A stretch of 64,000 nt of DNA, taken from Nocardia paucivorans NBRC 100373 (GTDB taxonomy: Bacteria > Actinomycetota > Actinomycetes > Mycobacteriales > Mycobacteriaceae). This document shows positions 6,898-64,000 of this stretch, in pieces (the first letter of the stretch is position 1; each line of letters begins with the position of its first letter). The position numbers and the translations under genes are program-made. Under the pieces are notes generated by a model. That model made no database searches. It had not been told where the DNA came from and saw only the letters and a program-made list of their open reading frames with translations. The DNA lies in the NCBI RefSeq assembly GCF_000308675.1, contig NZ_BAGE01000018.1:248001-312000 (forward strand), in the 5' to 3' direction.

Positions 6898-6906
6898 CCG
6901 TGGATG

Positions 6907-7999: not shown

Positions 8000-8053
8000 C
8001 CGCCGAAAGGGCGAGCTCGTGGGCTGGTGGCCGGGACCGGGAGAAAGGCCGAG

Positions 8054-8563: not shown

Positions 8564-8587
8564 TGTGTTTCGGGACGGGGCTCTGCT

Positions 8588-15600: not shown

Positions 15601-17179
15601 GTTGCGGGCGCTGGAACGCAAGCGAACGCAGGCCGCCCTGGTGCATCACGTGCTACGGGCCAGGGTGTGGGCGGCCGAAAAAGCCCTGGGTCGCGGCGAG
15701 GCGACCGTTGCCGAAGTGCGCCGGTTGCGGACCGCGACGGCTCGAGCACATGCGGACCTCGCACGTCTCGACCGAGACCTGAACGAGGCATTGGCAGCAC
15801 GTCGACCGGTCCCCGAACCGGCGCGGACGTCGGGCAACGGGTGCGGCCCCTTCTCGGTTATGGCGCTGGCGACGCTCACCGGAAACCCGGATATCGAGCT
15901 GTTGGAGTTCGAACCCGTTATCGGGACCTCCGGTTTGGACATGTGGGCCGCGCTCGGCGCCGATGTGGTGAATGTCGAGGACTACGACGACCTCGAACGG
16001 GTCGTGCCCGCCAATGGCTTCGCGTTGGTCAGCGAGGACCATACGAACAACGAGGGACACACCTACGTGTTGCTGTCCCTCGACGGCCGGCTGCTGGTAT
16101 CCGAGTTCAATGGCGTCGAACTACACGAGTTCCCGCCTCGACCCCGAGGCGAGCTCGCAGCGCTGCGCGCCTGCGTCTTCGATGACTCGGGCCACCCGAC
16201 CCACCCACTGTCCGAAGGAGCTCGCGCTCGGTTCCGCGAGTTGGCCCAGCAGGTGCTCGAGCTGAAAGCGGCGAAACCACAGTTGTTCGGGGCGTGGGCC
16301 ACCGACGCGCGCTCCGACCGGGATCTTCGGCGGATCATGGCGACGGCGGACGCGGTGATAGCGACAGAGCGGTCCGCACGCGGCTCGACCGGTACCCGGC
16401 GGCGGACGACCGCCGACCCGATAACTCCCCATGTGCAGGCACGGGTGCGTCGGTTGCTCGCGGAAGCGGAGAACGTCCCGGTGTCACCGGAGTCATCTCC
16501 CGCGGAAGCGGATCACGGGGCCGATTCCGATTCGGTTCGGGTCTCGACCTTCCTGAGCGCCGCCACGACCGTCGATATCGACACGCGATCTCGAACGAAT
16601 GCGATAGCCGCACATGTGCTGGGTGGTATCGCCGACTCCTCGGCTCGGGTGGTGGTGGTCGGCGATGTGGACATCCTGCTCGTCACCGATGGCGCCGGTC
16701 GCGTGGCGCTCGAGGTGGCGCTGCACAACGATACCGGTGAATTCCGTGTCCGCCTGCGCATCGCTTCGGGCAACGCTTTGTGGGCAGGCGACGCCCGGTG
16801 GTTGCTCAGAATGGCCTGGTGCTGGACGGACCACGGAAATCGTGATGCCGTACTGGACCGCATGGAGCGTGGTGCGCGGACCCTGTTGGGCGACGGCGGT
16901 GGCGAATTGGAGGCCACGGTGACAGGGGCGCGGGGTGCCCGCCGGCTGCGACTCGCCGTACGCACCGATGACGGCGCTGCCGAGGAGTTCTGCTACGACG
17001 AGGCGACCGGTGCGTCGAGTCGGGACCGGGAAAGCACCGGGCGCCCGGCGGGGCCGTGGGTCGGTCGCCCGCAGACGACGGTCGGGTCCGGGCTGTTGAA
17101 CGCGGACCCCGATGAGCCCGTGCGCGTGAGCGACCTCGATGCCGTGAACACCGCGTGGGACACCGGGGACGACCGGTAG
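8588..17179 (+). CDS. Giant multidomain protein A with five LuxR-type HTH domains
   Basis: The protein has 2863 residues and starts at GTG 8588, 24 bases after the EbfC-like gene. Residues 1-340 form a WXG100-like N-terminal domain with hydrophobic helices, as in CpnT-type exported toxins. A J-domain-like helix with HPD follows (376-378), then Gly/Ser/Pro linkers with two degenerate ADP-ribosyltransferase-like modules (about 567-705 and 806-963). Next come a papain-fold module (Cys1128, His1213), three LuxR-type HTH domains (1322-1516), a helical spacer, two more LuxR HTH domains (1664-1810) and a coiled coil. A Cys-less papain-like module (about 2113-2255), another coiled coil, a second Cys/His papain module (Cys2419, His2491) and an unrecognised C-terminal domain end the protein. 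The gene stops on a hairpin terminator. The N-terminus suggests ESX export, but the HTH domains are typical of intracellular regulators. Function is unknown. Confidence 0.85.
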   Translation: MAYNVEIPGWLQGIARVLNFGIEYPDARGGDMAALAQRVWLGPAAQMRAITPFVQETMGDIEDIYTGRATEPLLKQMRKLTRGKHSLDTLADAMEEFGRSIQRSADAVTKTQLMQLGFAAYTLYLLWKARVLFSITPWGRVALPAIEAGIVAAGRELVAVAATRGAARVSAEMAAATMNRSLAPLLTRFGSLGPLGKLLGNELLRASGKAAALGAVIDGVASLAAGADLEWQSIFISGVAWGFAPLTGGPAAWAMSRALSAWTAPLTAKRLLLGVVTGQAGMAGMWAGGIVGQVGVGLLETGGVEWANVDTSFDPHVLGVGAGLGLLHAAGQPVPPGSGGGAPGAGTARVADLGKLTPQSRREGGALYRELMKQLHPDKYPEGPARARAAELYAEVSEIRNQAKGVGRNNEYYEGHVSRLKEIRHQWNMYREGLWNGGANDGSAPHPNSGGKFGAEASGPRAGSPESGGRSSEGGARSVVVPESGVRDGGSGKSLVVRPDAGRAVEGRSSVAPAARSASTGDGGGVVAARSPTTTTPSDRSIPDAGDSSSAVDQVLQAVERRGREAAGVPVGVEDLMPGAVVREGVDPEAVLNRWADAGGAVPQWRGPGRNPVYFPGRPGAPIFEQGVLPDPVTGLVHGFTSMAQAREYGSGVVYVVDAPGGFVQDLSSGGQAVVLLGGVAPEFVVGRYEYTEMGTIHVANPGFDPARPPPARPDAGSPAGPTTARSPREPGQPQPGAKPDPATRSGGGSTRDPETSNRGRPGPRSGVREAPLTPPRPGENISAADRVVAAMQREQATQQAVEAGMVATGFPPGENPMPAAVRTEGVDMPGLFAGWGKSGKAPVWQGESGSGPVYCPISEAGSGRSPFTEGIEPEPGMDVVVGYDSLEAARQFAGPVRIYVIDAPGGFAQDLPDGGRVVVFPGGVRGEFVVGRHQTDLDPLDDRGYEHWSYVENPSFGLPYTEPVGGIEPKGSGTVPKPVSVAGPGVRDTDGGQVAESGARTTGGTVPSVFAASGHSVFDTPAAGAAPRIGPVTVPGHEPAVAVSEPTSTPEPTSDTNADPTGKGISDPLAGSRDPATESGTETSRSGPGAGPLPATPTTRMADRGGAEPKTPATVGRDAEPLLVGQCATYAAYEFELANWAARGRVGPRPVKPPPGNPLRGDSATDIAKHVRGDWHRDRTHHRSLSELIHKVMTTPGMRVLFVVEYSDGFGHAGFAEHDPEHEVVIKHSFDGGFEYTHAGRAEAAEFIRAFANETHRVTSIQSYDGVLEAALAPGEEPRAIPGLYMPRAETLVFGSPTDPQRFIGADSSLLGRSRTGGRPLSPAQRAIVDLIVRGMANTDIAARLEISESAVKSQVKRIYDRLGITDRNQLVGIGEEALAELIRGGGTRVLSQTELGILRMIVQGVKNPGIARNLGLSEYTVRSYVKRIYDKLGVSNRNELVGNLDIFLAALLDQAIRPLSERQKIILRLVAQGRGNAEIAEFLHITETTVKGYVTLIGRKLGVAERGDMVVMATAPDTPIRADVFAESMSGPADHAFLQYRRRIALSFLTGSRVLAPDVARALVSGSDAELVRRIREYDEDLDLVDAALMLMSTDRATFEQAMSRLDFVQRRRVGAAADLVRSGGQVSFIRFSAVNKLVFEVAEISSRSTEGFFAGVHTSGLLETEFEILELVATSHTNPEIAQKISVDVASVKKTISTIMEKLDANDRTHLVVQALRHRIISPSRIAPLERAPARSSNGPEGEPVRLSPRERSVLPFIAAGLTNKRIGSLLGVSPETVKSALQSLFRKLGVEDRTGAVVEAWRRGYLDSENIPEGLARHESGTGPEREPGPSGSRRSAVDEESGGSGVVGNLLDLPGESTATTETAAQRTQSPPMPPSRGGPPDPTGAATWYAFGEKDLSTHAHRRPGSGAVPPSTTDFEHRDAELTALLRTVVRAQREADFRRSESAQRYRDAVRRLGLDPAASIAEHMVTLGDPANIAEEQRRELVEMVHRHHDLQQACMRMDATSAELTAALLDRAHWASVAERRLLAFDVPVVSAGPLRKRLESGIREWDTVRREAFPELAAALDALRETGERAQRAAMALVEGLVVPTPPTAGSIENDPDAPIAAAVRTITDLYGPGVVLPAGIRIGATDPDTRLQEHVRGRLVRVRTYADLVRRSEKLGPGSAIIVVEYNVDPAVARGQVHAERYVLVNRTGTVVKLARDSGTAEEFTPPPIAAEMMFALAVHPNGTAQYPMDPEWHSPPPFGSMLVRDRAEGEVWRLHNANVERALEWRRVLSQAARLGVAAERLRPDNRENLMGELAASVDGPQAVTVRELMESLERHRWITTEITELRALERKRTQAALVHHVLRARVWAAEKALGRGEATVAEVRRLRTATARAHADLARLDRDLNEALAARRPVPEPARTSGNGCGPFSVMALATLTGNPDIELLEFEPVIGTSGLDMWAALGADVVNVEDYDDLERVVPANGFALVSEDHTNNEGHTYVLLSLDGRLLVSEFNGVELHEFPPRPRGELAALRACVFDDSGHPTHPLSEGARARFRELAQQVLELKAAKPQLFGAWATDARSDRDLRRIMATADAVIATERSARGSTGTRRRTTADPITPHVQARVRRLLAEAENVPVSPESSPAEADHGADSDSVRVSTFLSAATTVDIDTRSRTNAIAAHVLGGIADSSARVVVVGDVDILLVTDGAGRVALEVALHNDTGEFRVRLRIASGNALWAGDARWLLRMAWCWTDHGNRDAVLDRMERGARTLLGDGGGELEATVTGARGARRLRLAVRTDDGAAEEFCYDEATGASSRDRESTGRPAGPWVGRPQTTVGSGLLNADPDEPVRVSDLDAVNTAWDTGDDR
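9660..9800 (+). other. Giant A: J-domain-like segment
   Basis: Around residues 360-405 a helix ending MKQLHPDKYPEG is followed by a second helix (ARAAELYAEVSEIRNQ). This matches helix II, the HPD loop (376-378) and helix III of J-domains, which stimulate Hsp70 ATPase. The segment is short and helix I is not obvious. Confidence 0.55.
10286..10700 (+). other. Giant A: degenerate ADP-ribosyltransferase-like module 1
   Basis: Residues 567-705 have the block order of cholera/pertussis-type ADP-ribosyltransferases: PVYFPGRPGAPIFEQG where YRxDxRpP..IF..G is usual, HGFTSMAQA at the STS position, VVYVVDAPGGF, then VVLLGGV before the last strands. The N-terminal catalytic Arg and the Glu before the GG strand are not present, so it should be inactive. 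Confidence 0.5.
11002..11475 (+). other. Giant A: degenerate ADP-ribosyltransferase-like module 2
   Basis: Residues 806-963 repeat the blocks of module 1: PVYCPISE, FTEGIEPEPG, VRIYVIDAPGGFAQDLPDGG and VVVFPGGVRGEFVVGRH. The catalytic Arg and Glu positions are again replaced. The two modules are paralogues separated by a low-complexity linker. Confidence 0.5.
11950..12440 (+). other. Giant A: papain-fold module 1
   Basis: A Cys in QCATYAAYEFEL (Cys1128) starts a helix. After the strand VLFVVEY comes GHAGFAEHD (His1213). This Cys-helix then G-H-strand order is that of papain-fold toxins, including glutamine deamidases. The Cys/His pair could support catalysis. Confidence 0.5.
12551..13133 (+). 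other. Giant A: LuxR-type HTH domains 1-3
   Basis: Three adjacent domains (residues 1322-1385, 1392-1450 and 1461-1516) each follow the GerE/LuxR pattern: LSxxQ/E, then G.AN..IA..L.ISE..VK.....I..KLG...R..LV. Examples are IAARLEISESAVKSQVKRIY and IARNLGLSEYTVRSYVKRIY. Recognition helices look intact. Confidence 0.85.
13577..14015 (+). other. Giant A: LuxR-type HTH domains 4-5
   Basis: After a helical spacer of about 145 residues, two more LuxR-like domains appear (about 1664-1721 and 1750-1810). Domain 5 is canonical (LSPRERSVLPFIAAGLTNK, then LLGVSPETVKSALQSLFRKL). Domain 4 is more divergent (NPEIAQKISVDVASVKKTI). Confidence 0.75.
14925..15350 (+). other. Giant A: papain-like module 2, no cysteine
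   Basis: Residues 2113-2255 contain the strand SAIIVVEYN and a VHAERYVLVN strand (His2190) followed by a GTVVKLARD turn, as in the papain-fold modules. No Cys occurs anywhere in the module, so a cysteine-dependent activity is excluded. Confidence 0.4.
15830..16215 (+). other. Giant A: papain-fold module 3
   Basis: NGCGPFSVMALATL places Cys2419 at a helix start. GFALVSEDH and EGHTYVLLSLDGRLLVSE supply the later strands with His2491. The Cys/His pair is retained. It follows a coiled coil rich in Arg and Glu. Confidence 0.5.
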
Positions 17180-17221
17180 CACCGGCACCCACCCGGAATC
17201 GGAGGGTGCCGGTGCTACCGG
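17173..17221 (+). terminator. Hairpin terminator overlapping the stop of giant A
   Basis: An 18-bp perfect inverted repeat (17173-17190 with 17204-17221) encloses a 13-base loop and includes the TAG stop of giant A. The opposite-strand catalase gene ends at 17235, so the hairpin may serve both directions. Confidence 0.85.
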
Positions 17222-17234
17222 CCGTGACGAACAC

Positions 17235-18146
17235 TCAGGGCTTGTTGGGGTCCAGCGCGCTCTTGACCTTGCCGACGATGCCGGACTCGGTGCCGAGCGC
17301 GGCCGAACGTGGCTCGCCCTGGGACCCGTCGTAGGTGGCGTACAGTTTCGGATCCGGCGGCGGCGCGGACGCCTTGTCCCCGAGCGGTTGCGGATCGGCG
17401 ATGAAACCGTTCCGGTGCGCCCCGTCGGGGGCGGTGCCGGAAGCCCATCTGCCCTGATCGGCCTGGGTTCCGTCGGACAGATGCCACAGGCTCGTGGCGT
17501 GCTCGGAATGCTCTTCGTCGAACAGCGCCGTCGGAGCGATCGTGTCCGCCAACCCGTCCTCTTGGAGTTGTTCGATCCCGGCCAACCACATGTTCTGGTG
17601 GTAGGTGTCGCGGGCCAGGTTGAACTTCAGCATGTCCTTGACACCGGGGTCGTCGGTCATGTGGTACAGCCGTGCGGTCTGGACCCGGCCCTGCGCCTCG
17701 GCCGTGACATTCGCGTGGAAATCGGCGAGGAGGTTTCCACTGGCCACTATGTATCGGCCGTTCCACGGCACCCCGTTGCTGTCGGCCAACGTCGGCCCGC
17801 CTCCGGAGATGATGGCCTGCTGCGGGTCCATTCCACCCAGCACCGCGGCGACCACGGGATCGGCGGCCGCTTCCTGAGTGGCGCGGGTGGCGGGGGCGCC
17901 CTCGAGCAACCGCGCGACCATGGTGGCGATCATTTCCACGTGCCCGATTTCCTCGGTGGCCACGTCCATGATCATGTCCTTGTACTTGCCCGGCATTCGG
18001 CAGTTCCATCCCTGGAACAGGTATTGCATGGTGACGGTCATCTCGCCGTACGCGCCGCCGATCAACTCTTGGAGTTTGCGTGCGTACACGGGGTCGGGCT
18101 TTTCGGGCTTGACGTCGAACTGCAGATAATCGGTATGGCGGAACAT
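17235..18146 (-). CDS. Manganese catalase
   Basis: The 303-residue non-haem catalase dismutates hydrogen peroxide in the cytoplasm at a dimanganese centre. Ligands at the expected places are Glu35 (GAYGEMTV), Glu66 and His69 (EEIGHVEM), a Glu in NVTAEAQG and a His in DTYHQNMW. ATG 18146 has GGAGG just upstream; the open frame extends further 5' but without support. Length and motif order match the family. It lies downstream of a hemerythrin and a DUF2231 gene on the same strand, a stress-type set unrelated to the ribosomal genes on either side. Confidence 0.93.
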   Translation of the reverse strand: MFRHTDYLQFDVKPEKPDPVYARKLQELIGGAYGEMTVTMQYLFQGWNCRMPGKYKDMIMDVATEEIGHVEMIATMVARLLEGAPATRATQEAAADPVVAAVLGGMDPQQAIISGGGPTLADSNGVPWNGRYIVASGNLLADFHANVTAEAQGRVQTARLYHMTDDPGVKDMLKFNLARDTYHQNMWLAGIEQLQEDGLADTIAPTALFDEEHSEHATSLWHLSDGTQADQGRWASGTAPDGAHRNGFIADPQPLGDKASAPPPDPKLYATYDGSQGEPRSAALGTESGIVGKVKSALDPNKP

Positions 18147-23080: not shown

Positions 23081-24403
23081 GTGCTTTCCGCCTTCGTATC
23101 GGCCTTCCGGACTCCGGATTTGCGGCGGAAGATTCTCTTCACGCTGGGCCTGGTCGCGTTGTACCGCGCCGGTGCATCGCTGCCCTCGCCCGGGGTGGAT
23201 TATCAGGCGGTCCAGGAATGCGTCGACCTGGTTTCCGGTGGTGAGAACGCCGGTATCTACCAGCTGATCAACCTGTTCTCCGGTGGCGCGCTTCTGCAGT
23301 TGTCGGTCTTCGCGATCGGCATCATGCCCTATATCACCGCGAGCATCATCATCCAGCTGCTGACCGTCGTCATCCCTCGGTTCGAGGAGCTGAAGAAGGA
23401 AGGCCAGACCGGCCAGACCAAGATGACGCAGTACACCCGCTACCTGGCGGTCGCCTTGGCGATTCTGCAGGCCACGGGTCTGGTCGCACTGGCCGCTCGC
23501 GGACAGTTGCTACAGGGCTGTCAGCAGGACATCCTCGCGGATACGAGCATCTTCGGGATGATCATCATCGTGGTCGTGATGACCGCGGGCGCCGCCCTGG
23601 TCATGTGGTTCGGTGAGCAGATCACCGAACGCGGGATCGGCAACGGTATGTCGCTGCTGATCTTCTCCGGTATCGCAGCCCGCGTCATCAGTGAGGGCAA
23701 TATGATCCTGGACAGCCGCGGTGGTCTGGTGTTCGGGGTGGTCTGCGTGGCCGCGCTGGCGGTCATCGTGGCGGTGATCTTCGTCGAACAGGGGCAGCGC
23801 CGGATCCCGGTGCAATATGCCAAGCGGGTGGTCGGCCGCAAGATGTACGGCGGTTCGTCGACCTATCTGCCGTTGAAGGTCAACCAGGCCGGTGTGATCC
23901 CGGTGATCTTCGCCTCCTCGCTGCTGTATCTGCCGAACCTGCTGGTGCAGTTGGTCGGTTCCAGCAACGACCCCGATCCGAGCTGGTGGCAGGAGATAAT
24001 CCAGAAGTATCTGGTCAACCCCACCAACCCGGTGTATATCGCGATCTACTTCGGTCTGATCGTGTTCTTCACCTACTTCTACGTCGCCATCACCTTCAAC
24101 CCGGAGGAGCGGGCCGACGAGATGAAGAAGTTCGGCGGTTTCATCCCGGGTTATCGCCCTGGTAAACCGACCGCCGATCATCTGAGCTACGTACTGAGTC
24201 GGATCACCCTCCCCGGCTCGATCTACCTCGGCGCGGTGGCCGTCCTGCCGAGTGTGTTCCTCGATATCGGCTCCACGGGCGGTACGCAGAGCATGGTGTT
24301 CGGCGGTGCCGCGGTACTGATCATCGTGAGTGTCGGATTGGACACCGTGAAGCAGATCGAAAGCCAACTGATGAATCGAAATTACGAAGGGTTCCTCAAG
24401 TGA
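23081..24403 (+). CDS. secY: Preprotein translocase subunit SecY
   Basis: The 440-residue protein has ten hydrophobic helices, the N-terminal [15 protein letters not shown] segment and the late cytoplasmic loop [14 protein letters not shown]. It forms the Sec channel with SecE and SecG and is driven by SecA. The plug and pore-ring region is in helix 2 ([21 protein letters not shown]). GTG 23081 has AGGAGG at ideal distance. Its stop overlaps the adk start by four bases, so the two are translationally coupled. Confidence 0.97.
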
Positions 24404-24966
24404 GAGTTGTACTGCTAGGACCGCCGGGAGCGGGCAAAGGCACTCAGGCCGTCCTGCTGTCGGAGAAACTGGGGGTACCGCACATCTCGACGGGGGATCT
24501 TTTTCGGGCGAACATCGGCCAGCAGACCCCGCTGGGTCTGGAGGCGAAGAAGTACCTGGACGCCGGCGATCTGGTGCCCAGCGATGTGACCAACCGAATG
24601 GTCGAGGCCCGGATAGCCGAGCCGGACGCCGCCAACGGTTTCGTGCTGGACGGTTACCCGCGCACCGTCGACCAGGCCGATGCCCTGGCGAAGATGCTGG
24701 GCGAGATGGACACCAAACTGGACGCGGTGCTGAGCTTCGACGTCGCCGAGGACACCGTGGTGGCGCGGATGCTGTCGCGTGGCCGCGCCGATGACAACGA
24801 AGAGGTCATCCGCAACCGGCTGCGGGTCTACCACACCGAGACCGCGCCGCTGCTGGACTACTACGACGGCCTGGTCGTCACTGTCGACGGGGTCGGCGAG
24901 GTGGAAGAGGTCAACGAGCGCGCGCTGTCCGCGTTGAACTGTCCGAGCAGCGGAGCTTCGCGGTAG
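24400..24966 (+). CDS. adk: Adenylate kinase
   Basis: The 188-residue enzyme interconverts ATP plus AMP and two ADP. The P-loop reads [10 protein letters not shown] (residues 7-16), the AMP-binding part HISTGDLFR, and [13 protein letters not shown] follows. The LID is the short actinobacterial form ([16 protein letters not shown]) without a zinc knuckle. It starts at GTG 24400, overlapping the secY stop, and precedes map. Confidence 0.97.
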
Positions 24967-25010
24967 TGCGGTCCGCCGTCACCGAGCCGGTTATGGAGAA
25001 CTGATCCCCC

Positions 25011-25811
25011 ATGGTTTTCGGCCGCAAGGGCAAGAAGGTGGTGCCGTTCCGCACCCCCGGTGAGTTGGACGCCATGGCGGCCGCCGGGGCGATCGTGGGT
25101 CGCGCCTTGGTCGAGGTGCGTAAGGCCGCGGCGCCCGGGGTGTCGACCCTGGAACTCGACGAGGTCGCCGAGCAGGTCATTCGCGATGCCGGGGCGGTGC
25201 CCTCCTTCAAGGGTTATCACGGGTTTCCCGCCTCCATCTGCGCCTCGGTCAACGACCGCGTCGTGCACGGCATCCCGTCGGCCGCCGAGGTCCTCGCCGA
25301 AGGGGATCTGGTGTCCATCGACTGCGGTGCCATCCTCGACGGCTGGCACGGTGATTCGGCCTGGACGTTCGGCGTGGGAACCCTCATCGAGGCGGATCGC
25401 CTGCTCAGCGTGGCCACCGAGCAGGCGATGGAGGCCGGTATAGCGGCCATGGTGCCGGACAATCGGCTCACCGATGTCTCGCATGCCATCGAGTTGGGCA
25501 CCCGCGCGGCGGAACGGGAACACGACCGCGCCTACGGCATCGTCGACGGTTACGGTGGGCACGGTATCGGCCGGGAGATGCACCTCGATCCCTTCCTGCC
25601 GAACGAGGGACACCCGGGGCGCGGGCCCCGATTGGTGGTCGGCTCGGTGCTGGCCATCGAACCGATGCTCACCCTCGGCACCAGCGAGACCAAAGTGCTC
25701 GACGACGACTGGACCGTGGTGACGGTGGATGGTTCCCGCGCGGCCCATTGGGAGCACACCGTCGCGGTGACCGAGGACGGTCCACGAATTCTCACCGTGC
25801 GGCCCGAGTAG
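25011..25811 (+). CDS. map: Type I methionine aminopeptidase
   Basis: The 266-residue enzyme removes the initiator methionine from new proteins. The five metal ligands of the pita-bread fold are visible: Asp in VSIDCGAI, Asp in GWHGDSAW, His in [10 protein letters not shown], Glu in AIEPML and Glu in HWEHTVAV. There is no N-terminal zinc-finger extension. It lies 44 bases after adk in the secY-adk-map unit. A hairpin at its stop separates it from the convergent dtd gene. Confidence 0.96.
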
Positions 25812-28637: not shown

Positions 28638-29168
28638 ATGTCCGCACAGTATTCCGACGCGGCCGCGGCGGCCATGGAGAGTTTTCAGCGGCAGATGCAA
28701 CTGGTCGCGCAGCTGCAACAGCAGCGCGCCCGGTTGACCGCGACCGTATCGGTGCGGGACAAACGGGTCACCGTCACCGTGAATGCCAACAACACGGTAA
28801 TCGAAACCAAATTCGCCGATGATATCGACGAATTGAGCTACGAAGAGATCGCGGCGGCGGTGACCGAGGCCGCGCAGAAAGCGTCCGAGGAGGTCACCCG
28901 CCGGGCAAACGAATTGGCGCAGCCGCTGTTGGCCGAGCGGGCGGCCCGACCGAAACTGTCGGATATCCTCGAGGGCATACCCGAATTCCGGATGCCGGAG
29001 GAACCGGAGGTCTCCACCGCCGCACCCGGTTCGGCCGAACGTGCCGCGTTCGACGCCGCGGAGGAGTCGGCGGCGGAAGAGGCGGCGATGACCTTCACCG
29101 ACGTCGAGGAATACGATCACCAGCGCAAATCCGACCGGGCTTCCGAGGTTTCCGATTCCGGTTGGTGA
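28638..29168 (+). CDS. EbfC/YbaB-family-like protein of cassette B
   Basis: The 176-residue protein is a paralogue of the 8054 gene. It has an N-terminal Gln-rich helix (MESFQRQMQLVAQLQQQR), the strand pair RVTVTVNANNTVIETKF and the helix YEEIAAAVTEAAQKA. Both copies share FADDI.EL.Y.EIA.AVTEAA, then VSTA.PG..ER and a terminal Trp. The fold is that of YbaB/EbfC DNA-binding dimers. The gap of 4 bases to the WXG100-like gene shows a shared operon. Confidence 0.72.
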   Translation: MSAQYSDAAAAAMESFQRQMQLVAQLQQQRARLTATVSVRDKRVTVTVNANNTVIETKFADDIDELSYEEIAAAVTEAAQKASEEVTRRANELAQPLLAERAARPKLSDILEGIPEFRMPEEPEVSTAAPGSAERAAFDAAEESAAEEAAMTFTDVEEYDHQRKSDRASEVSDSGW

Positions 29169-29267: not shown

Positions 29268-30240
29268 GTGGCCATCCCCTTTCCCCCCGCCGAACTGGCC
29301 TGGTTGCTCGGTTATGTCGCCGGCTCGGAGATCCCGGTCGGCAACGAGGATTATGCCCAGGTCATGCGGGAGGGCTTCCAGGAGCTGCAGAAGCAGATCC
29401 GGGAGCAAGAGCTGCCCAAGATCGACGATGCCATTCATCAGATCGAAATCGCCTATCCCTCGGGTCGGGGCGGCGAGCAGATCATCAAGGGGCTGAAGGA
29501 ACTTCGCGAACAGGCCGAGCAGGCGGCGAAGAATTACGGCGCTCTCGCCGAAGGCATTCACGGTTTCGGCGGTGAGATCGTCTCGGCCAAACTGAACGGA
29601 ATCATCGGTCTGGCCTGGTTGGCCGGGGAACTCGCCTGGGCCGTGGTGATGGGCCCGGTCGGACCCAGTATCCAGATCGCGGCGATCAGCTATACGCAGA
29701 TGCTGTTCCGGCTCATCGGTACTCGGCTGACCGCGATGATCGAGCATTATCTGGGCAAGGTCATCTCCAACACCGTCGTGACCGAGATCGCCTCCAAGGT
29801 CGTCTACGAGATGATCCAGGAAGGTTTCGTCGAGATCTTCCAGGGCACCACCCAGGAAGTCGCCGTACAGACCACGTTGATCGCGCAGGACTACAAAGAC
29901 GGTTACGACTGGGGCGCGATCTGGACGAACGCGTGGATTTCCGGTGTCGCCGGCGCTGTCGGCGGGGCCGCCGGTCATGGACTGCACCGGGCCACGCAGC
30001 GGCTGCCGTGGCGGCCCGACCGATGGGGCGGGCTGGGACGCGGCGCGATCGTCGGCGCGGGTGCCGGTTTGGCCGGTGCGCTCGCGGCTTGGGGCGCAAC
30101 CGGTTTGAGTTCGGGGGACTGGACGCTGGACCCGCGATCACTTACCGGTGGTGTGCTCGGCGGTATCGGGCCCAGTATGTACTACGGCTGGCACGGCGGT
30201 AGCGACTACTCCGGTAGGCCGATGCGTCGTGAAGACTTCA
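29268..30240 (+). other. Giant B: ESX-type N-terminal domain
   Basis: Residues 1-325 start AIPFPPAELAWLLGYVAGSE, have two helices (EGFQELQKQIREQELPK and GGEQIIKGLKELREQ) and then hydrophobic Gly/Ala-rich helices (SGVAGAVGGAAG, GAGAGLAGALAAWG). Exported actinobacterial toxins share this plan with giant A. Confidence 0.6.
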
Positions 30241-33200: not shown

Positions 33201-36200
33201 CACGAGCTCGGGCGGGCGTTGCAGAGATTCGCGGAACTGGAGTCGGGCCCGGCCTCGGCGGACCCACAGCGGATTGTGCGGGTGTACATGCACGCCGACA
33301 CGTTGGCGAGGTGGGCGGGCTCGCTGCGGGATGTGGAGGTTTTCGCCGGGAAGATTTCGCAGGCTCGGCTGTCCCGGTTGCTGACGGCGGACTTCGAGGC
33401 GGAATTGGCCCGATTGCGCGCCGAGAACGTGGACGCGGCGGAGCTGCAACGACTGGATGCTGTTGTTCGGCGTCACCACACGCTGACCGAGCAGGTCCGG
33501 GCCTCCGAAGAACAGCTGTCGGCGCTTACGGATCCGAACAGGCAGGCCACCCCGGACGACAATCGGTCCGCCCAAGACGAGGAGATCACGCAGAACCGCG
33601 CCAGGGCATTGCAGCGGTTGACCGAGACGGTCACCCGGTTGAGCGGTGAGCTGGACACCGCACGCCAGGAAATGGAAAGCGCTGCGACCGCATTGGGGCT
33701 GGACGATATCGCTCGCCGGGCGTTGTCCCTGCCGGATTTCGATACCGAACTGACCCGGGTGCAGGACTCGTCACGTGAGTGGCAGGTGCTGTCGGCGAAT
33801 ACGCACTTCTATCACGAGCTGGTGGCCGTGGTCGAGCAGTGCACCGTGCTGCTGGCGCAGATCCGGGATCACGATCGGGGTTCGGCACGGTGGCTGTCCG
33901 CGGCGGCCTGGCACGCGACCTTGGCCACCACTGTCGCCACCGCGCTGCGTGAGGCGCGCGACGCGACGCTGACGCGCGTGTCCGAACCCGAGATGTCCCG
34001 GATCATCAGCGACCTTTTCGACTGGACCGACTCGTTGCAGTCCAACTGGACCCGACTCGGACAGGAGGTTTTGGATCGGTCCTCGATCGCCGGGATGAGC
34101 GATCGAGGACCGGAGCAGAACGCCAATCAGGATGCAATGGCAGCCGATGTCATTGTCGTGGCCGGCCGCCCGATCCGTATCGCCGTCACCGCCGGCGGGG
34201 TGGTCGATTCCATCGATGGCCACCGGGCCGCCGATGTGGCGACCGCGGCGGCGTACGAGAGTCTGCGAAATGCGTTGCGGGAGCACTCGTCCGAAGAGGG
34301 ACTCACCGAAGCCGACCGGGCTCGTATGGTGCGCGAGGCCATCGACGCGGCGCAGACGGCGGTCATGGACCTGACCGATCGGGAGTACACCGACGACCGG
34401 GATCGGGCGCAACGGGCGATCAATGCGGGTGCCCGGCTGGTTGTCATGCCGCCGCAGACTTCCATCGCGGTGGTGATGGTCGATCCCGGTCGTGACGGCG
34501 AGTCCGGGAACTACACCGCGGGCTGGGTCGGCGACTGTCGGGTCGATGTGCTCGACCCGACCGACCCGGATACCGCGCGGACGGTGACCTTCGACCATTC
34601 GCCGGTCGGAAATTCCATGGCCGAGGCCGCGGGTGAGGCCGGGTACGTGATCGCCGGAAGTGAGGCCGGCGCGGACGCGGAACTCGGGCACGCGGGCCGC
34701 AGACTCGATCACGCGCTCGGTTTCGGCACCCGTCCCGAGACCCCCGGTGGCCCGCCGACCGAGGAAGGCCGCTATATCACCACCGGTCGACTCGCCGAGG
34801 CGCAGATCGTGCTGGCGCGCACGGCCGGGTGGGGGGATATCGGTCGTCGAACGCCCACACTCGCCCAGGCTTTCGCCGACAACCCGGGTGATCTGCGCGG
34901 CGCGCTGACCGACCTGGTCGACGACGCTCGCGCGGCCGGGGCCAGGGGCAGTATCACCGGTGTCGCCGTACAAGCCACGACGAGCGAGCCCGTGTCGTCG
35001 GATCCGGAGTCTGCGTCGTCGGATCCGGAGTCCGTGTCGTCGGAACCCGCGGGACGCCCCGATGCGTCGTGGCTGCGGACGGGGCTCGACGACCTGGTCG
35101 CCTATAGCAATGCGCGGCAGGAGATGGTTCTCGCGGCGGACAGATTGCGTACGGCGCGCGGATTGGACGAGGCACGTTACGAGGAGGGGCTGGACGAACG
35201 TCCCGACGACAACGGACCGGGCCCAAGGGAACGGCAGGTGCGGGGTGCGGTCCGATCCGCCGTCGCCCGCTATATGGAAGCGCAGCGGGCGGTCGACGAA
35301 TTCGTTCGGCGACTCGGCGCCGAAACGCCGAACGGGATTTCGGTGTATCAGCGGCAGCTACTGCTGGAATTCGGCTCCGCGGCGGCGCAGTGGCAGACCA
35401 CGAAGTCGTGGCTTTCGCCGTCGGGGGACGTGGACGTGGCGACGTTGTTGCAGGAGGGGGAAGAGGATTGGCCGTTCCAGGAGGAGACCCAGTACGTTCG
35501 CCGAATGGCTCGGCAGCTCGCCGCCGATCCCGTCCTGCGGCCGGTCGCCGAGGTGGACGGCGGGTGGGGGCCGGTCACCTTCACCCCGGACACCACCGTC
35601 CCCGACAATTCCACCGATCCGGTCGACCATTTCGACATTGATCTCGACACGATCTTCGGGGTCAGTGACAGGGGCGCCAACATATACAAAGGGCGCAACC
35701 AGGACTGGATGGATTCGGCGGTGGTGGACACCCCGGAAGGGCCGGTCCGTATCTCGGTGGTGTGCGACGGGGTGGGGTCGTCGCTCGATTCCCATCGCGC
35801 CGCGCGGGTCGCCGCACGGGCCGCCCGGTTGCATCTGGCCGCGTTCGCATTCGAGCAGCGGGGGGTTTTCACCACCGAGCAGGCGAACCAGGCGATGCAG
35901 GAGGCGATCGACGCGGCCCAGGCCGCGGTGGTGCGGCTGACCGAGGAGGAGTACGCCGACATCCCCAATCCGCCCCGGACGACGATCGCCGCGGTCATGG
36001 TCCGGCCGGGACAAGACGGCAGGCCCGGGCAGTACACGGCGGGTTGGGTCGGCGACACCCGAATACAGGTGCTGCGGGCCGAGGGCGAGTCCGAGGCGGT
36101 TTCCCGGGACCATTCGGCGCTGCCGTATCTGGTGGATCAGGGATTGAGCCAGCGGGAGGCACTGCGCGACCCGGATGCGCACGGTGTCGCGTGGGTGCTC

Positions 36201-39200
36201 GGCCGCGACGCCGGCCCGCCGCCCCCGAACGACGCCCTGCACGGGGAGTACATCACCTCCGGCACGGTGTCGGAAACCGATATCGTGCTGCTGAGCACCG
36301 ACGGGCTGTGGGGCACCAACCCGGAACCGGACGAGATGGATATCGTCCTGGACGGCGGGCGAAACAGCGATCTGCGGGATATGGGCGCCCGCCTGCTGAA
36401 CCGGGCCCTGCTCAACGGTGGCGCGGACCACATCACCCTCACGCTGGTGTCCTGTGACTCGACCGGACCGACACCGCACAGGCTGCCCCCGCCGCCGGCC
36501 GATATGCCCGGTGAGGTTCGGCGGCACTATCGGGTTCTGGCCGAGGAATACGCGCGGGCCCGCACCGAACTGTGGCGATTGGCCGCGCCGGCGGGAGCGA
36601 ATCCGGAACGCCTGGCGGTGCCGGGTCGGCTCGCCGCCGAGATGCGGCGCCTCGCGGATGCGGATGCCGCCCCGGAGGCGCGGGTGCGGGCGGAGATTGC
36701 AGCGCGCCATTTCCACGCGCTCACCGAACGAGTGACCGAGCTGCGGCAGTGGCTCGATACGGCCGGTGACCGGTCACCGACACAGTGGACCCGGGACGAG
36801 ACCAATTACCTTGCTGCTCTGTCGGATTGGTCGACCTCACTGCGCGACCTGCGGGAAGGCGCACTGGCCGATGCCGAGGCGGCAGTGGCCGAGCAGCGCC
36901 ACGGCGAGTTGATGCGACTGCCGGAACTTCCCGGTTCGATCCGGGTGGACGAGCAGATCCCGGACAATGCGCGGGTGGCGGACGCGGCGCGTCGCTATAT
37001 CGATATGTCTCACGAGGTCGACCGCAGCGTGCGGCGACTCGACGACACCCGGTCGTATGACGGAAGCCTGGAGATCCCGCCCGGTTTGCGGCACGGCTAC
37101 CGGCTACTCGTGACGGAGCGGGAGAACGCGCGGGAGGTTTTGCGCGCGTCGATCGGTGGACTACCGGTCACCGTCGAGGAATTGGTGTCCGCCGATCACG
37201 CCGATGCGCTCGAGGTGCTGCGTCGGATGGCGGCCGAGGTCTCGCCCGACTCGGACGCGCCGCGGCAGTTGCCGGCGGATGCGTCCCCCGACGACCCGCA
37301 TACATTGGCCCGGTTCGAGGCCGACCGGGTGCGGAACGAGGCGCTGGTGCGCGATATCGACCGGTTGATCCGCGCCACACAGCGATACCACCGGGCCGAC
37401 CAGCGGGTGCATGCGCTCGAACAGCGCATCCGGGCCCATGGCGACGGAACGGACACCCTGGATGCTCGGCCCCGGCCGACATTGCCCCTGGACAACGGGT
37501 TCACCGAGCGGCAGCGTGACCGGGCCGTACTGCGGTGGCGGGTTTTCCAGGCGACGGCGTTCACGCCCGCCGATGTCGCGGATATGTGGGCGTCGACCGA
37601 TCACGACACCCGGCGGGCGCTCATTCAGGTGTTGCCAGGGGTGATCGCCGAAACCGAGGGAATTCCGCCCGCGGTCCGCGACGAGGCGATGCGGTTGGCC
37701 TTGCGGCGTGAGCGGGAGCGACTGCGGCAGCAGTCCGATACCGACCCGCGCTGGGCGGCGACGCTGGATTCCTGGGTGGACCTGGTGGCGGCGGCCGAGC
37801 GGTGGACGGCGCAGGCGCCGGGGCATCCGGCGGTGCACCTGATCGGCCGAACCGGGCCGATGCTGGTGATCGGCGATCTGGATACCGCGGAAGAGGTCCG
37901 CTTCCACGCGGTGGACCGCCACAGCCAGGACGGGCCCGCGACACTGATGCAGGCCACCTCGGCCGCGGTCGACGGTGTCGCGTCCGCCGGCCGGCCCGCG
38001 GCGGCGGTGGTGTGGGTCGGACCGGACGGTCCTGCCCTGGCCCGGGATGTGGCCGGGATGTTGGAAACCCGCGCCGATCGTGGTCTTTCAACGCCGGATG
38101 TGGTGTTGGTCGGGCACGACGACGCCACTCCGGTGGCGCAGCGGCGCGATGGAGTCCCCCAGGCCGATCCGGACCTGGTGCTGCATGCCCTGGACGACGC
38201 GGCGCTGGCGGAGTACCGGGACCGTGTCGATGTCGACGCCTGGAACCCGGGGGTCGCGCGGTGGCTGCCCGCGCATCGGTTGGAGGGGGTGGCCAACGAC
38301 TGTTTCCTGGTCGCGGCTCGGGGCGCGTTGCGACATTCGTTGGCGGTCCGGTTGCGGATGCCGGGTGTTGATCCCGAGAACGATGCGGTGGTGGCGGATC
38401 TGCGTGCGCGGATCGCGATGCTGGAGCCGGCGTCGGCGCCGCTGAACGGGGTGTCCGGCGAGGCGGGCGCGCAATGGATGGGGGCGGATTGGCACCGGGA
38501 GGGGTTCGCCGATTTCGACGCATTGGCGGCGGCGGTGCCCGAGGGCGGGGTGATGGTCGCGTCGGTGGCGTTCGAGGGTTTCCAGCGTCCGGGGGCGGTG
38601 GGTGCGCATGCGGTGCGGGTGTATCGGGAGAACGGTCGGCTGTGGGTGCGGGATGGGGATGGTCCGGCGGTCGATTTCGCGGTGTGGCGTGATGGTTTGT
38701 CGGGTGTGGTGGGGTTGCACGGTATTGTGCGGGCCGCCGACGGGACCGCGGTGGTGCCCCTCGGCGACAGCGGAACCGGCGGATTGGCGGGTGTCTCGTT
38801 CCCCGTTTCGAATATCGGCGGGCAGCCGGATATCGACGCAGCCGGCGGGGTTGCTCGGGTGGGGACCGCCCGTGCGGACCCATCGCCGCCGCAGCGCACG
38901 CGGCGTCTGTTGGGACAGGCGCTGGTCGATCTGGCCGCGCGACGGGACGCCGCGCGCGCTCGGATGGAAACCGCGATGGACCGGCTGCACACCACGGGTG
39001 TGGCGGTGGACGATGCCACGCGGGTCGCGCTGCGGTCGGGGCAGTACGACACCGAACTCCGCCGTCTGCGCGACCTGGTGCCCGAGGAACCCGCGGCGTC
39101 GGCCGATCCGCGGCTCGCCTGGGCGGGTGGCCGGTCGCTCGACCCGGGACAGGATCCGCGACTCGGCTGGACCGAGTTGGCCGCGCACACGCACCACTAT

Positions 39201-42200
39201 CACGAACTCGACGGTATGCGCGGGCAGGTCGAGGTGCTGCTCGCCGAGTTGCGCGAGCGGGAACAGCACACCCCGGAGTGGCTTGCCGCGGCCGGGCGAT
39301 TCGCCGACGCCCTGCCGGAGTGGTCCACCGTGGTGGACACCGTGCGCGACGCGGTATTGCACCCGGGCGACGAAGCCGAGGTACGCGCACTCGTCCATCG
39401 GGCACTCGCCGCGATCGAGCCGCTGCGGACGAGTTGGGCACAACTCGCCCGGGACAACCTGGACCTGGGTTCCGTTGTCGGGGTGAGCGATCGGGGCCCG
39501 GACAAGAACGGCAACCAGGACGCGATGGCCGCCGATGTGGTCCTCGTCGGCGGCAGGCCCATCCGGTTCGCGATCGTCTCCGACGGGGTGTCCCGGTCGG
39601 TGGACGGTCACCGCGCCTCCTCGGCGGCGGTCGCGGCAGCCCGCGAAAGCCTGCGCACGGCCTTGCAGGCGCACGACTCCCGCACCCCGGTCACCGACGC
39701 GCAGCGCCGGCAGATGGTGGACGAGGCGATCGCCGCGGCGCAGAACGCGGTCATGGCGCTGACCGATCGGGAGTACCGCGAGGTGCGGTTGAAGGCCGAG
39801 GCGGATATCACGGCAGGCGCCGACCAGAAGAGCATCAAGTTGCCGCCGCAGGCCACCATCGCGTTGGTTCTGGTGGATCCGGGGCAGGACGGCAGGCCTG
39901 GCCGGTACACGGCGGGCTGGGTCGGTGACAGTCGGGTCGACGTCCTCGATCCGACCGACCCGGGCAAGTCGCGGACGGTGACCTTCGACCATTCCTTCGT
40001 CGGAATGGGCATGCTCTTCGACGCGGTCGACGCCGCCAAGGCCAATGGTTCGACCAAATCCACCGCGGAACTGGTCGACGAGGTCTCGCAGGTGGTCGGC
40101 GAAGCGCCGGTCGGTAGCGGCGGGTTGATGAATGTGCTCGGTTTGGGCACCCGGAACGCGGAAGGCTACGGTTCGGCCGGCGGACCACCGGCGAAAGGTA
40201 CGCAACGACACCATCGCTACCTCACCGACGGTGAGCTGGCCGCCACCGATGTCCTGCTCGTTCGCACCGACGGCGTCGGTGGGCAGAACCGACAGGCACC
40301 GGCGTTCGCGCGCGCTCTCGCCGCCCATGACGGCGATCTGTCCGCCACGCTGGCCTCCTTGGTCGACCAGGAGCTGGCCGGTGGGGAAACCGACAACATC
40401 ACCGCTGTCGCCGTGACGGCCGCACCGACCGAACCCGGTGATCCGCCGCCCATCGGACGAGATCGGCTCGCGGCGGGGCGGCAGGCCCTGCTCGATTACC
40501 ACCAGGCACGTCAAGCGATGGCGCGTGAGGCCGCGGCAATGCGTCGGGCGCGCAGGATGGACATCGCGAACGGCCACCCCGAAAACAGTCCGGCCCCGGG
40601 CCCGGCGGAGCGACTCGTCACACCGTCGCTTCGCGAGACGGTTCGTCGCGTCACCCAACTGGCGAAAGAGGTCGGTGCGTTCACCGATCTGCTGACTTCC
40701 GTCCAACGCGGGCCGCTCTCGGCACAACAGCGTCGGATATTGGCGCGGTATGCCGCCACGGTGGCGGAGTGGTCGGCCGCGGATGTGGTCATGCGGCAGA
40801 TCTCGGATGCCGACCGGAGGATGGACGCATCGGACGTCCCGCATGTGAGGGTTCTCGAGCCGACCCCGGAATGGGCACGGCTGCTACGGGCCCGACGAGA
40901 GGTCGAGGACGTCCTGCGGCAGTTGGCGGCCGATCCCGTACTGCGACCGGTCGCGGCCCTCGGCGGTCCATGGGAGAACGGCACCGACCCGAGGGATGTG
41001 CCCACACATCACGGTCCGGTGGATACCGCCACCGAGATGGCCGTTCGTTCCGAGGTCGATCTCGGTTCGATCGTCGGGGTCAGCGACTTCGGTGCCCACG
41101 CGGACCGGAAACGCAACGATGACCGGATGGCCGCGGCGGTGATCCACACCCCCGACGGACCGGTCCGGATCTCCGTGGTGACCGACGGCGACTCGGAGAG
41201 CACCGGCGGGGATCGGGCCGCCGAAGTCGCCGCGCAGGCGGCCCTGGACCATCTGGCCGCGGTGGCGCGGGAATTGGGTCCGGGGCAGCGGTTGTCCACC
41301 GCGGATACCGAACGGGCGATGCGCGAGGCGATCGCCGCGGCTCAGGCCAAGGTGACGGAGTTGGCCGACACCGAGTACGCGAACGACCCCATTCCGCCCA
41401 CCACCACCATTGCGGCGGTTCTGGTGCAGCCGGGCCGCAACGGCCGGCCGGGGCAGTATACGGCCGGTTGGGTCGGCGACACCCGGGTCCAGGTGCTTCG
41501 AGAAGACGGTCGGTCGGAGACGGTGACCACCGATCACTCCGGTCTCACACGGGTCATGCGCGACAGAGGGATTTCCGAACGAGCCGCGGTGCGGCTGCCG
41601 GAAGCCCGATTCGTGCGGCACAGGCTCGGCGGGAGCGAAGAGCTTCCCACGGACAATGTTCGTTCCGGCACGGTGTCGGATACCGATGTGGTGCTGGTGG
41701 ATACCGACGGGTTGTGGACCGCGCTCCCCGAAGCGGGCGCATTGGCCGAGGTCGCGCGGCAGGAACATGGCGATTTGGCCGCGCAGAGCGCGCGTCTGTT
41801 GGAGATCGCGCTGCTCGACGGGGGGCGGGACAACATCACCCTGACGATGGTGTCGTGCGCGCCGCACGAGCCGGCGTCCCGCGCGCTGCCCGCGCCGCCC
41901 GTGGGCACGCCCGTCGCCCTGCGCCGCGAGTACACCGCATTGGCGCGGGAGTACCAGCGGTGGTGGACCGAGTTGCGCGAGGCGGTCCGGGACTTGCCGA
42001 CAATGGATTCGGACCGGCCGATCTCGCCCGAACAGGTCATCCAGGAATTGCGGACCGGCGCAATGGGCGCGCTGAACGTCCAGGCGCATGTTTTGGCCGC
42101 GGTGGAGATCACGGCCCGGCATCTGCGGGAGCTGGGGGCGCGGATCGCCCGGTTCCGGGTCTGGTTCGAGGCGGAGGCGGGCCGTTCGCAAGGGTATGCG

Positions 42201-60200: not shown

Positions 60201-63200
60201 GCGGACCATTTCCATTGGAACCCACCCGAAGGGCGCAATGTCCGTGACTGGTTGCTCGATATCGCGCCCAAAGCAATCGAGCGCCGGATCACCGAACGCG
60301 TTCGCGCGGCCGTCCTGGAACGGCTACGAGCCGATGTGCGCGAAGAGGACAGAGATGCCGCGGCCGCTTCCGAATTGCGGGCCCAGGTCGTGGCCTCGGC
60401 GAAGTCGGTGGAGATCGAACATGCCTTGAACAGAGGCCTTCGTGGACCCCACCGGGAGTGGCTGCGACAGCGTTACGGGTTGGCGGCCACCGAGGAGTTG
60501 GCCCTGGCCAAGGCCAGGAAGCTGGGCGCGGTCGCGGAGCCGGGCATTCTGGACGCCGTCGCTGCGCGTGCGGTGGCCGACATCGTCTTCGACGAGTACC
60601 GGATCTCGTTGAACGAGATACCGTCACCCGGTACGTCGGAACACGAGTTGCTGAGCGCATTGGTGGCCGAACGTTTTCCCGCCGAAGTCGTGGCGGCCGT
60701 GGGAGGCGATTTCGAGAAACTGCACAATGCGGCGACGAGTTTGACCGGACGTTCCCGCGAATACTTCAACCTCCGCTTCCTGCGCGGTCTTTCCCCGGAG
60801 CGGGTCGGGTCGATCATGGGGATCACCGATATCGCCGAGCGGGCGACCGTCGTCGTCGATCAATTGATGATCTCGCTACTCGAAGTGCCGGAGCCGCCGG
60901 TTGTCGATATCGACGAATGGTTGAGCGGCCTCCCGAAATCCGGGCCCGACTACGACCGACTCGCCGCGGAGGTGATGTCACGGCTGTCGCCGAAGCTGGC
61001 GCAGGCGGTAGCCGGAAATCTGAGGGATTTGGCGGTCGCCGTCGAGACACTCCCACCGCAGGAGAAGACCATCTTCTTCCTGACCGTTCTGCGGGGAGAG
61101 CCGTTGCTCGAGTCGAGCCGGACGATGATGGTGACTCGTAACAGAGCAACCTCATTGCAATCGACGGCGCAGGCCAAGTTGGTCGATTCGCTGGGTCACG
61201 CCCGGAGTGATGCGACGGTATCCGAACAGCAGCCCACGAGTGCGGGAACCGACGGCATCAAAGGGGCGGTGCCCAGGCAGGAGCGGTCGATCGCCCATGA
61301 GAAAAGCGCTCCGCTTACCGTCGACTTCGAACCGAGTTCGCCGCCTACCGCCACGGATGTTGCTCGCGTTGCGGGTGTTCCGCTTCGCGAGGTCATTCTC
61401 GTACTGAACAAGAAGGCTGTCTCTCAGTCGGTTCACGGACGCGTGGTGGCAGCGGCGAAGCGGATCGGATACGAGCTATCCGAGGATGTCGCGCGGCCAC
61501 CGCGACTGCCACAACCGGTTTCGACCTATGCTGTGGCACGCCGGGCCCGAGTGCCGCACAACGCCATACGGCGAATGGCGCGTGGAGATTCGGTTCCGGA
61601 CACGGTTCGGGAGCGCGTCTCGACCACGATGCGGGAACTCGAATTCGAATTTCGGGACGGCGATGTGGTTTCGATTCACGAATTCGCTTCCAAGTTCGAA
61701 TGGACGATTCTGGCACGGGAGTCCGGGGTGTCCACGAACACGTTGCAACGATGGCTCGCGGGCCGCTCGGTCATGGCCGAGTCCCGGCAGAAGATCGCTG
61801 CGGGGGCGGCCCGGCTCGATCTCGAGATTCCGCCGGAATTGTTGGTGGTGCCTCCGCCACCGCCCCGGCCGCTCTCTCGAAATAGATTGGCTCACGAGGC
61901 GGGGGTATCGCTGGACGCGGTTGACCGGCTGCTCGACGGCGGGCGGGTCACATACGCAACGTGGTCTCGGGTTGTCGCAGTGGCAACTCGGGAAGGGTAC
62001 GAACTTCCGGAAGCAGCCCTCAACCCGCCGATTTGGTGGAATACCGCGGAGATCGCTCGGGCGGCGGGGGCGTCCAAAGTGGTGGTGCAACGGGTACGTG
62101 CCGGAAAGTGGGTGGATCCGGAACTACGCCGGCAAGTGGTCGAGGCACTACATCGACTTGCCCCAGAGCTCGTGGACCAGCTCCCCCCGGCTCCGCCACC
62201 GCCGAGGCGCCGTTACAAGATGACCGACGTAGCACGGGCATCCGGGGTGCCATACTCTCAGGTCCTCCGGTTTTTCCACGGCAAAGAAGTCGATGCGCAG
62301 GTGGGGCGGGCGTTGTTGACGACCGCGGACCGGCTCGGTATACCGACTCCCGCGAATGTCCGGTTCCGGCTCCCGCCCGTGGTCTCCATGAAGCAGGTGG
62401 CGCGAAAGGCGGAGGTGAATCCCGGCAGTGTTCACAGAGCCTTCAACAGCGGTCCGGTAAGCGCGCATACCCTGCGAAAAGTGCTTTCCGCGGCAACCGA
62501 ACTCGGATTCCCGCTGACTTCCGAGGTCTTGGCCGGTATCCGGTTGCCGCGACAATTCGTGGCGGATCTGGCCGAGGCCGCAGGTGTATCCGAAGACGTG
62601 GTTCGTCGCGTGTTCGCCGGTCGGGAAATGGATCTGATGGTTTGGGGGCAGGTCCGGGATGCGGCTACTTCTCTCGGCCTTTTGCCGCGCAGACCTGGGA
62701 AGCCCCAGGTGGCTCGGCTCGCCGGTGTGACTCGGAAAACTGTTCACTACATGCTCGGCCGCCGGAGCCCAAGTTACACCGAGGCAGAACAGCGGGTGTT
62801 CATTGCGGCGCGGTGGCTGGGGTATCCGCTCACCGAGAACCAGATTGCCGCGATCGATCCGCGATTCGTTTCGGAGCGATTCACCCCGGCGTTGGCGGCC
62901 GAGGGCCGGGCCTTCAAACAGCAGCCGAGATATGCCGAGGTAGCCGAGGCCGCGGGCGTGGATCAGGCGATTGTCTCGCGCGTCCTGTCCGGCACGGCAC
63001 ATGTCGACGAGGCCGTCCGACAGCGGGTTTACGCGGCAGCCGACGAGGTGGGGCTGTGGTATCCCCCGGTGGACAGGGCAGATGCCGAGCAGATTCGTGT
63101 TCTGCGCGGTGAGTTGGCGGATTTGCTGGGGCTCCCCTGGACCGAGGTGGATCGGGCCCGGGTATCGGCTGCTTTGCCGGACCAGGAATTGGGTACGTCG

Positions 63201-64000: not shown

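Follow-up and report, generated by a model that had tools for sequence, protein, structure and literature searches.

Fourteen consecutive LacI-type helix-turn-helix units within a 21,413-codon open reading frame of Nocardia paucivorans

A 64,000-nucleotide stretch of the Nocardia paucivorans NBRC 100373 genome (contig NZ_BAGE01000018.1, positions 248,001 to 312,000, forward strand), indicated below as "the window", carries 14 consecutive LacI-type helix-turn-helix (HTH) units, all in one open frame, between window positions 61344 and 63989. They form an array located at residues about 10,693-11,573 of a giant frame of 21,413 codons, of which they represent 4%. A preliminary description, made from the letters of the window, had reported at least 14 LacI-type domains in tandem within one protein. 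The tandem arrangement holds, with exactly 14 units, assigned to the LacI family by profile searches; there are no more in the array, and four weaker units are found about 4,550 residues later. The units do lie in one open frame; the array is, however, a segment of the much larger frame, which extends past the window end. The interpretation put forward here, tentatively and with somewhat less than even confidence, is that the array belongs to a giant, toxin-like, exported protein, in which it binds DNA multivalently and with low specificity. In the following, G000 and C111 indicate the genome and the contig of the window, while G114, G117, G051, G089, G140, G141 and G146 are genomes of the same genus; the G000 assembly consists of 128 contigs, G114 and G117 are single-contig genomes.

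The units of the array and their family

Each unit is about 45 residues long and is predicted to contain three helices, followed by a linker, partly proline-rich; linkers of about 19, 60 and 22 residues separate units 9-10, 10-11 and 11-12, respectively. The units are divergent, sharing 21-38% identity with unit 1. Positions are given in the numbering of E. coli LacI up to 28, and are one lower beyond, because the units are devoid of one loop residue. Ala10 is the sole residue invariant across units; Ala13, Gly14, Val15, Val20, Val37 and Leu44 are common, and arginine occupies position 22 in 10 of the 14. Between paralogous units, variability is among the highest at positions 17, 18 and 21 (0.07, 0.04 and 0.05). 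Units 9, 11 and 13 are mutually alike, as are units 10, 12 and 14: this resemblance suggests that a two-unit repeat was probably amplified within the array.

The assignment to the LacI family was evaluated by several searches. The Pfam LacI model (PF00356, curated cut-off 27 bits) finds eight matches in the whole G000 genome, six of them inside the giant frame. Three units, all in the giant frame, exceed the cut-off alone (38.3, 35.2 and 33.3 bits), and a fourth one does so when taken with its neighbours (26.8 bits alone, 27.6 together); the remaining matches are all below the cut-off. When the array was scanned unit by unit with the LacI model, as the preliminary description had proposed, 10 of the 14 units matched at E<=0.05, while four were unmatched alone; other HTH models also match some of them (HTH_31 five, HTH_3 three). 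Over the 1,977-residue piece holding the array the PF00356 total is 160 bits. A profile made from the 14 units recovers the Lac repressor headpiece from PDB at 2.2e-12: except for a designed helical repeat, all of the 46 sequences matched in this search belong to repressors or transcriptional regulators, LacI-family members for the most part. As a control, 15 locally shuffled versions of three giant frames generated no hit at E<1e-3. In the predicted structure two units align with the headpieces of CelR, PurR and CcpA; alignment domain by domain resolved units 10 and 12 and barely tested the others. Profile searches and structure prediction thus place the units among LacI-type HTHs. Foldseek, run on the whole array, gave no match at E<=0.001, the top ranks being taken by long helical solenoids. 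The model also features short helices after several units; in LacI/GalR repressors, a hinge helix enters the minor groove.

A ligand-binding domain, which the preliminary description had not seen, is not found here either: scanning the 1,977-residue array piece with Pfam gave no sugar-binding domain. Throughout the genome, the Peripla_BP_3 model (PF13377) has no match, with positive controls recovered in 9 cases out of 14 and other periplasmic-binding models not searched genome-wide; no ordinary LacI repressor with a Peripla_BP_3 core was therefore found beside the array. Coordinates of the units and of the other features are reported in Table 1.

Table 1. Location of the array units, of other domains of the giant frame and of the genes upstream of it, in window coordinates
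Feature	Position	Strand	Remarks
LacI-type HTH unit 1	61344..61508	+	Pfam LacI 23.1-23.3 bits, under cut-off 27
LacI-type HTH unit 2	61518..61688	+	
LacI-type HTH unit 3	61698..61865	+	
LacI-type HTH unit 4	61872..62036	+	
LacI-type HTH unit 5	62037..62207	+	
LacI-type HTH unit 6	62214..62384	+	
LacI-type HTH unit 7	62382..62558	+	
LacI-type HTH unit 8	62550..62693	+	
LacI-type HTH unit 9	62694..62867	+	
LacI HTH unit 10	62925..63089	+	
LacI HTH unit 11	63270..63443	+	Pfam LacI 33.3 bits (C111:311279-311395), above cut-off
LacI HTH unit 12	63510..63662	+	
LacI-type HTH unit 13	63648..63821	+	
LacI HTH unit 14	63819..63989	+	Pfam LacI 35.2 bits (C111:311828-311947), above cut-off
Giant open reading frame, 21,413 codons	GTG at 29268 to stop at 93509 (C111:341509)	+	No N, no stop; adjacent contig stretches read
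WXG100_2 (PF25547) head	29274..29663	+	29.2 bits (cut-off 27); 77% identity to the G117 head over 350 amino acids
PP2C_2 phosphatase-like domain	35697..36311	+	48.7 bits, cut-off 24
Second PP2C_2-like domain	39507..39950	+	29.6 bits, cut-off 24
Sigma70 region 4-like HTH, ahead of the array	60738..60827	+	26.7 bits, cut-off 24.1
YbaB/EbfC-family gene (PF02575), directly upstream of the giant frame	28638..29168	+	36.8 bits, cut-off 25.5
Upstream gene, 113 amino acids	28292..28633	+	No family match found

Relatives of the array

Searched at E<=1e-5, the array finds matches in 26 of 150 genomes of the genus, its own included, and every match listed lies within an open frame of 4,120 to 52,074 codons. 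Units were counted with a profile derived from these units. At the loci of the 25 other matching genomes this profile reveals 4-18 units in 12 genomes, while 2 genomes have two units and 11 a single one, counts which rest on about 1.5 kilobases (kb) of flank, some genomes having further matches; at least four units are therefore present at the locus in 13 of the 26 genomes, N. paucivorans included.

The two single-contig genomes allow a closer comparison. In G114 the match falls in a single frame of 52,074 codons (C1:6936835-7093056, L041-L049), in G117 in a single frame of 40,807 codons (C1:1939690-2062110, L054-L060), both free of N. The giant frame is collinear with both. Its identity to the G117 frame is 58% along 6,037 columns, and 52% along 1,496 columns surrounding the array; to the G114 frame it is 46% along 4,981 columns, which run through the array. 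Unit totals per frame, at E<1e-3, are 18 here, 40 in G114 and 26 in G117, where the arrays themselves count 14, 16 and 19 units, respectively. All 14 units find their best matches in the main G114 array, in the same order; in G117 only the first eight match in order. The second, four-unit cluster has counterparts in both genomes, and G114 features further two-unit repeats, spaced 193-204 residues and once 252. Over 771-884 codons of the array, the ratio of nonsynonymous to synonymous substitution rates (dN/dS) is 0.28-0.35 by NG86 and 0.21-0.23 by YN00; since dS is above 1 these values are rough, though well below 1.

The head of the giant frame is far more widespread: searched alone it matches 137 of the 150 genomes, in listed frames with codon numbers between the hundreds and the tens of thousands. 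In G114, head matches are also present in frames of 36,589, 32,451, 28,643 and 17,118 codons, and five of them have identical scores (C1:6935798-6936850 and four other places). The one preceding the 52,074-codon frame is not in phase with it but belongs to a frame of 644 codons; another is found in a 648-codon frame.

Searches of the protein database, which scored only candidates sharing most words, found one relative of about 500-1,570 residues (P0001) and two of about 5,500-17,500. Named relatives are a Nocardia donostiensis protein of 6,610 amino acids, partial, and a Nocardia blacklockiae protein of 6,454 (P0003). The latter is filed as 'GntR family transcriptional regulator' and has PF25547, PF06259, LacI and GntR domains; by the unit profile, its LacI units number six and are arranged in three pairs. 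Beyond the genus, the array query found a match in one of 397 genomes at the order level, and the array alignment one of 396 genomes from 236 genera at the phylum level, in both cases its own: two candidates were scored per genome, so that distant arrays could be missed, and several same-genus genomes in these draws were likewise devoid of matches. Named genome contigs, searched with the window array and with the G114 array, yielded no relative. The array is also unmatched in 72,556 plasmid records; phage records were not searched.

DNA binding and alternative explanations

The charge of the array is +18, above all the 94 giant-frame windows compared. The orthologous arrays have +3 in G114 and -3 in G117; one window out of 200 and one out of 123, respectively, attain these values. 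Based on their fold, on the recurrence of Arg22 and on this charge, the headpieces are predicted to bind DNA, and wrapping or bridging of DNA by the array is possible. Each of them would hold DNA weakly, since no core pairs the headpieces, while jointly they would do so by avidity. The giant chain is likely to leave the cell through the neighbouring ESX system, by analogy with CpnT and its N-terminal domain, and may act on the DNA or the transcription of a target organism: a bacterium would be the likely target, since sigma, LacI, GntR and LuxR-type domains belong to bacterial transcription. Papain-like domains of the chain might cut the sigma-LacI segment free, as suggested by their position and by the role, of toxins or releasing peptidases, described for such domains in polymorphic toxins (PMC3482391). 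Papain-like modules are placed on both sides of the array, at residues about 10,057, as judged by eye, and 11,674. A more elaborate scheme, where an ESX-exported polyprotein of 20,000-50,000 residues is cut into separate effectors by its papain-like domains, the string formed by sigma and 14 LacI domains wraps or blankets the chromosome of a rival bacterium and the GntR, LuxR-type and sigma segments hit its promoters, appears distinctly unlikely. If this transcription takeover were true, it would reveal a class of weapons which seize the transcription of the target by arrays of DNA-binding domains.

Some observations weigh against a DNA-binding, exported segment. Most other arrays measured are acidic: those of P0001, P0002 and P0003 have charges of -6, -2 and -11, the other G114 arrays +1, -7, -14 and -14, the second G117 array -9 and the second cluster of the giant frame -6. 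Base-contact positions show no stronger conservation between species than the remaining exposed ones (0.54 in 120 comparisons against 0.56 in 510; permutation value 0.61), and both less than the core (0.79 in 330). The proposal, made in the preliminary description, that the array reads a long composite site is consequently not favoured: the pattern of conservation and variability fits a weak, broad, many-headed binding or a scaffold better than a conserved composite operator. A scaffold is what would be expected if the LacI fold were reused as a repeating three-helix spacer, or for binding proteins, DNA binding having been lost. The conservation pattern and the acidic arrays point in this direction, as does the mean charge per unit, low everywhere (+1.4 here, +0.7 and -0.3 in two G114 unit sets, +0.5 in G117). 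Against it stand the retention of Arg22 in most units and the rank of the array, the most basic stretch in G000, with orthologues near the top in G114 and G117. Moreover, the same kind of protein contains GerE, GntR and sigma region 4 domains, not to be expected around a mere spacer; this explanation is considered rather unlikely.

The chain could also remain in the producing cell, with its head anchored at the membrane or at the ESX machine and the HTH arrays holding or regulating the cell's own chromosome. The size of the protein makes export hard to imagine, a further point against the exported segment, and the LacI, GerE, GntR and sigma HTH families all act in the bacterial cytoplasm; moreover, a YbaB/EbfC-family gene is found directly upstream, and a glycine- and alanine-rich stretch, seen by eye behind the head, might be part of the anchor. 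This is judged unlikely, given the EspG, PPE and WXG100 genes nearby, a WXG100-like head, of a type found on exported proteins, and the limited presence of the array in the genus (26 of 150 genomes), not expected of a housekeeping nucleoid factor. Even less credit is given to the idea that the array is neutral, having been multiplied by recombination within a gene tolerant to inserts. Amplified two-unit repeats, both here and in G114, and unit numbers varying from 1 to 18 between loci are what such a process would leave behind, but dN/dS values of 0.21-0.35, the ordered, unit-by-unit orthology with G114 and the absence of stops in 21,413, 40,807 and 52,074 codons, with the two longer frames belonging to single-contig genomes, make it very improbable. 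Finally, the fragmented state of the G000 assembly might raise the suspicion of an artefact: the collinearity of the giant frame with those of G117 and G114 over thousands of residues and its third-position guanine-cytosine content, steady at 0.70-0.82 all along, reduce its probability to practically nothing. The exported, low-specificity DNA-binding segment is therefore retained, with the reserve expressed above.

The giant frame, its neighbourhood and known systems

The giant frame, whose net charge is -714, brings many disparate domains together in one polypeptide, including PP2C, papain-like, sigma and GntR ones. The first PP2C_2 domain also matches the NCBIfam Stp1-type model at 1.9e-19, under the cut-off of that model. 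Papain-like module stretches in the three giant frames number 23 by a stricter profile and 44 by a looser one; no solved structure was found for this module by sequence, using its profile. At the C terminus (L010:12307-13506) a sigma-70 region 4 is accompanied by three GntR HTHs. The second LacI-type cluster is located at residues about 16,130-16,332 (near C111:325.7-326.3 kb), and an anti-sigma-like segment, at residue about 15,960, matched no Pfam family. Also embedded in the chain are amidohydrolase domains (Amidohydro_3/Amidohydro_1, L009:10479-12197) and a 4'-phosphopantetheinyl transferase domain (L010:9970-10413), both usual in metabolic enzymes. Absence of a domain in Pfam scans of long pieces weighs little: two 4,800-residue pieces of the frame gave no family, yet PP2C was detected there when smaller cuts were used.

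Upstream, on the same strand, the genes of Table 1 are accompanied by one of 520 amino acids, for which no family match was found. Downstream, there are an EspG-family gene and a PPE/WXG100-type gene, both on the other strand. A second YbaB-family open frame is also found downstream, and EspC is matched weakly (19.1 bits against a cut-off of 23.5). An ESX locus begins at C111:349831, 8.3 kb past the giant stop, with WXG100, EccE, EccB, EccA, EccD, subtilase and EccC; this EccC is located at 358.8 kb, another at 384.2 kb. In G114, a distance of 22 kb separates the giant frame from the nearest EccC; in G051 and G089 EccC shares the contig with the array-matching frame, at 47 and 81 kb from the nearest match (not from the frame edge), and in G117 it is about 1 Mb off, hence not near the giant. 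By eye, the giant frame and the ESX locus presumably lie between what we take to be secY/map and rpsM/rpsK/rpsD/rpoA/rplQ, about 94 kb apart, in the putative ribosomal-protein region (window 23081-25811 to L076:374-3554).

Compared with LacI/GalR repressors such as LacI, PurR and CcpA, the array shares the headpiece fold and the sequence family, with Arg22 in 10 of the 14 units. In those repressors, however, each chain carries one headpiece, paired by a dimerising core; here 14 are found in one chain, without any periplasmic-binding-type core found and inside a frame of 21,413 codons. Provided that it binds DNA, the array would be a natural covalent string of headpieces, showing how they act without a dimerising core.

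Giant multi-toxin proteins of actinobacteria and WXG-headed proteins with papain-like (Tox-PL1) domains have already been described (Zhang et al. 2012, PMC3482391). The giant frame resembles them in its WXG-type head, papain-like domains, many unrelated domains in one chain and type VII context, with PF25547 at the N terminus and ESX genes nearby; it differs in its arrays of transcription-factor HTHs, as neither 'LacI' nor 'helix-turn-helix' occurs in the available part of that article. Titles and beginnings of abstracts on the array, on Nocardia giants and on WXG100 polymorphic toxins yielded no recognisable description of LacI arrays, in agreement with the preliminary description, to which no described protein of this kind was known. 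Giant multi-toxin proteins of actinobacteria are known; HTH arrays are the new element.

Should the giant be exported, type VII secretion would have to translocate polypeptides tens of thousands of residues long, unless they are cut first. PF25547 is the family of the CpnT-type N-terminal domain. The giant, as interpreted here, resembles CpnT of Mycobacterium tuberculosis (PMC8092274), which is secreted by a type VII system and carries its secretion domain at the N terminus; unlike the giant, CpnT consists of two domains with one toxin, and no TNT-type domain was found among the giant-frame pieces scanned. Polyvalent proteins of phages and conjugative elements, whose domains number from 2 to 15 and which would, by prediction, enter cells along with the parasite DNA (Iyer et al. 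2017, PMC5512222), similarly combine disparate enzymatic and DNA-binding domains in one polypeptide; a WXG100-type head near an ESX locus distinguishes the giant frame from them.

The 40,807- and 52,074-codon frames, found in single-contig genomes, bear on the upper length of bacterial genes. Larger Omnitrophota frames are reportedly described in a preprint. The Omnitrophota open frame of Velamenicoccus archaeovorus has 39,678 amino acids, a length exceeded by the G114 frame; such frames are likewise single and above 20 kb, but they have few annotated domains, some with many membrane helices (PMC10066038), whereas the Nocardia ones are domain-rich and ESX-linked. In the available part of an article on huge proteins (PMC11573180), Nocardia does not occur.

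A second frame of the window, located at 8588-17179 on the + strand and coding for 2,863 amino acids, opens with a borderline head, which scores 26.6 bits with WXG100_2 against a cut-off of 27. It contains five GerE (LuxR-type) HTHs, in an array at about 12488-14017, along with weak Scabin-like and DnaJ matches. The GerE array finds matches in 8 of the 150 genomes, its own included, in frames of 2,871-20,471 codons; in four of the eight (G051, G140, G141, G146) a LacI match is present in the same frame, as indicated by identical frame length, strand and contig. Since GerE and LacI arrays recur in giant frames, giant proteins of the genus repeatedly bear runs of bacterial transcription-factor domains.
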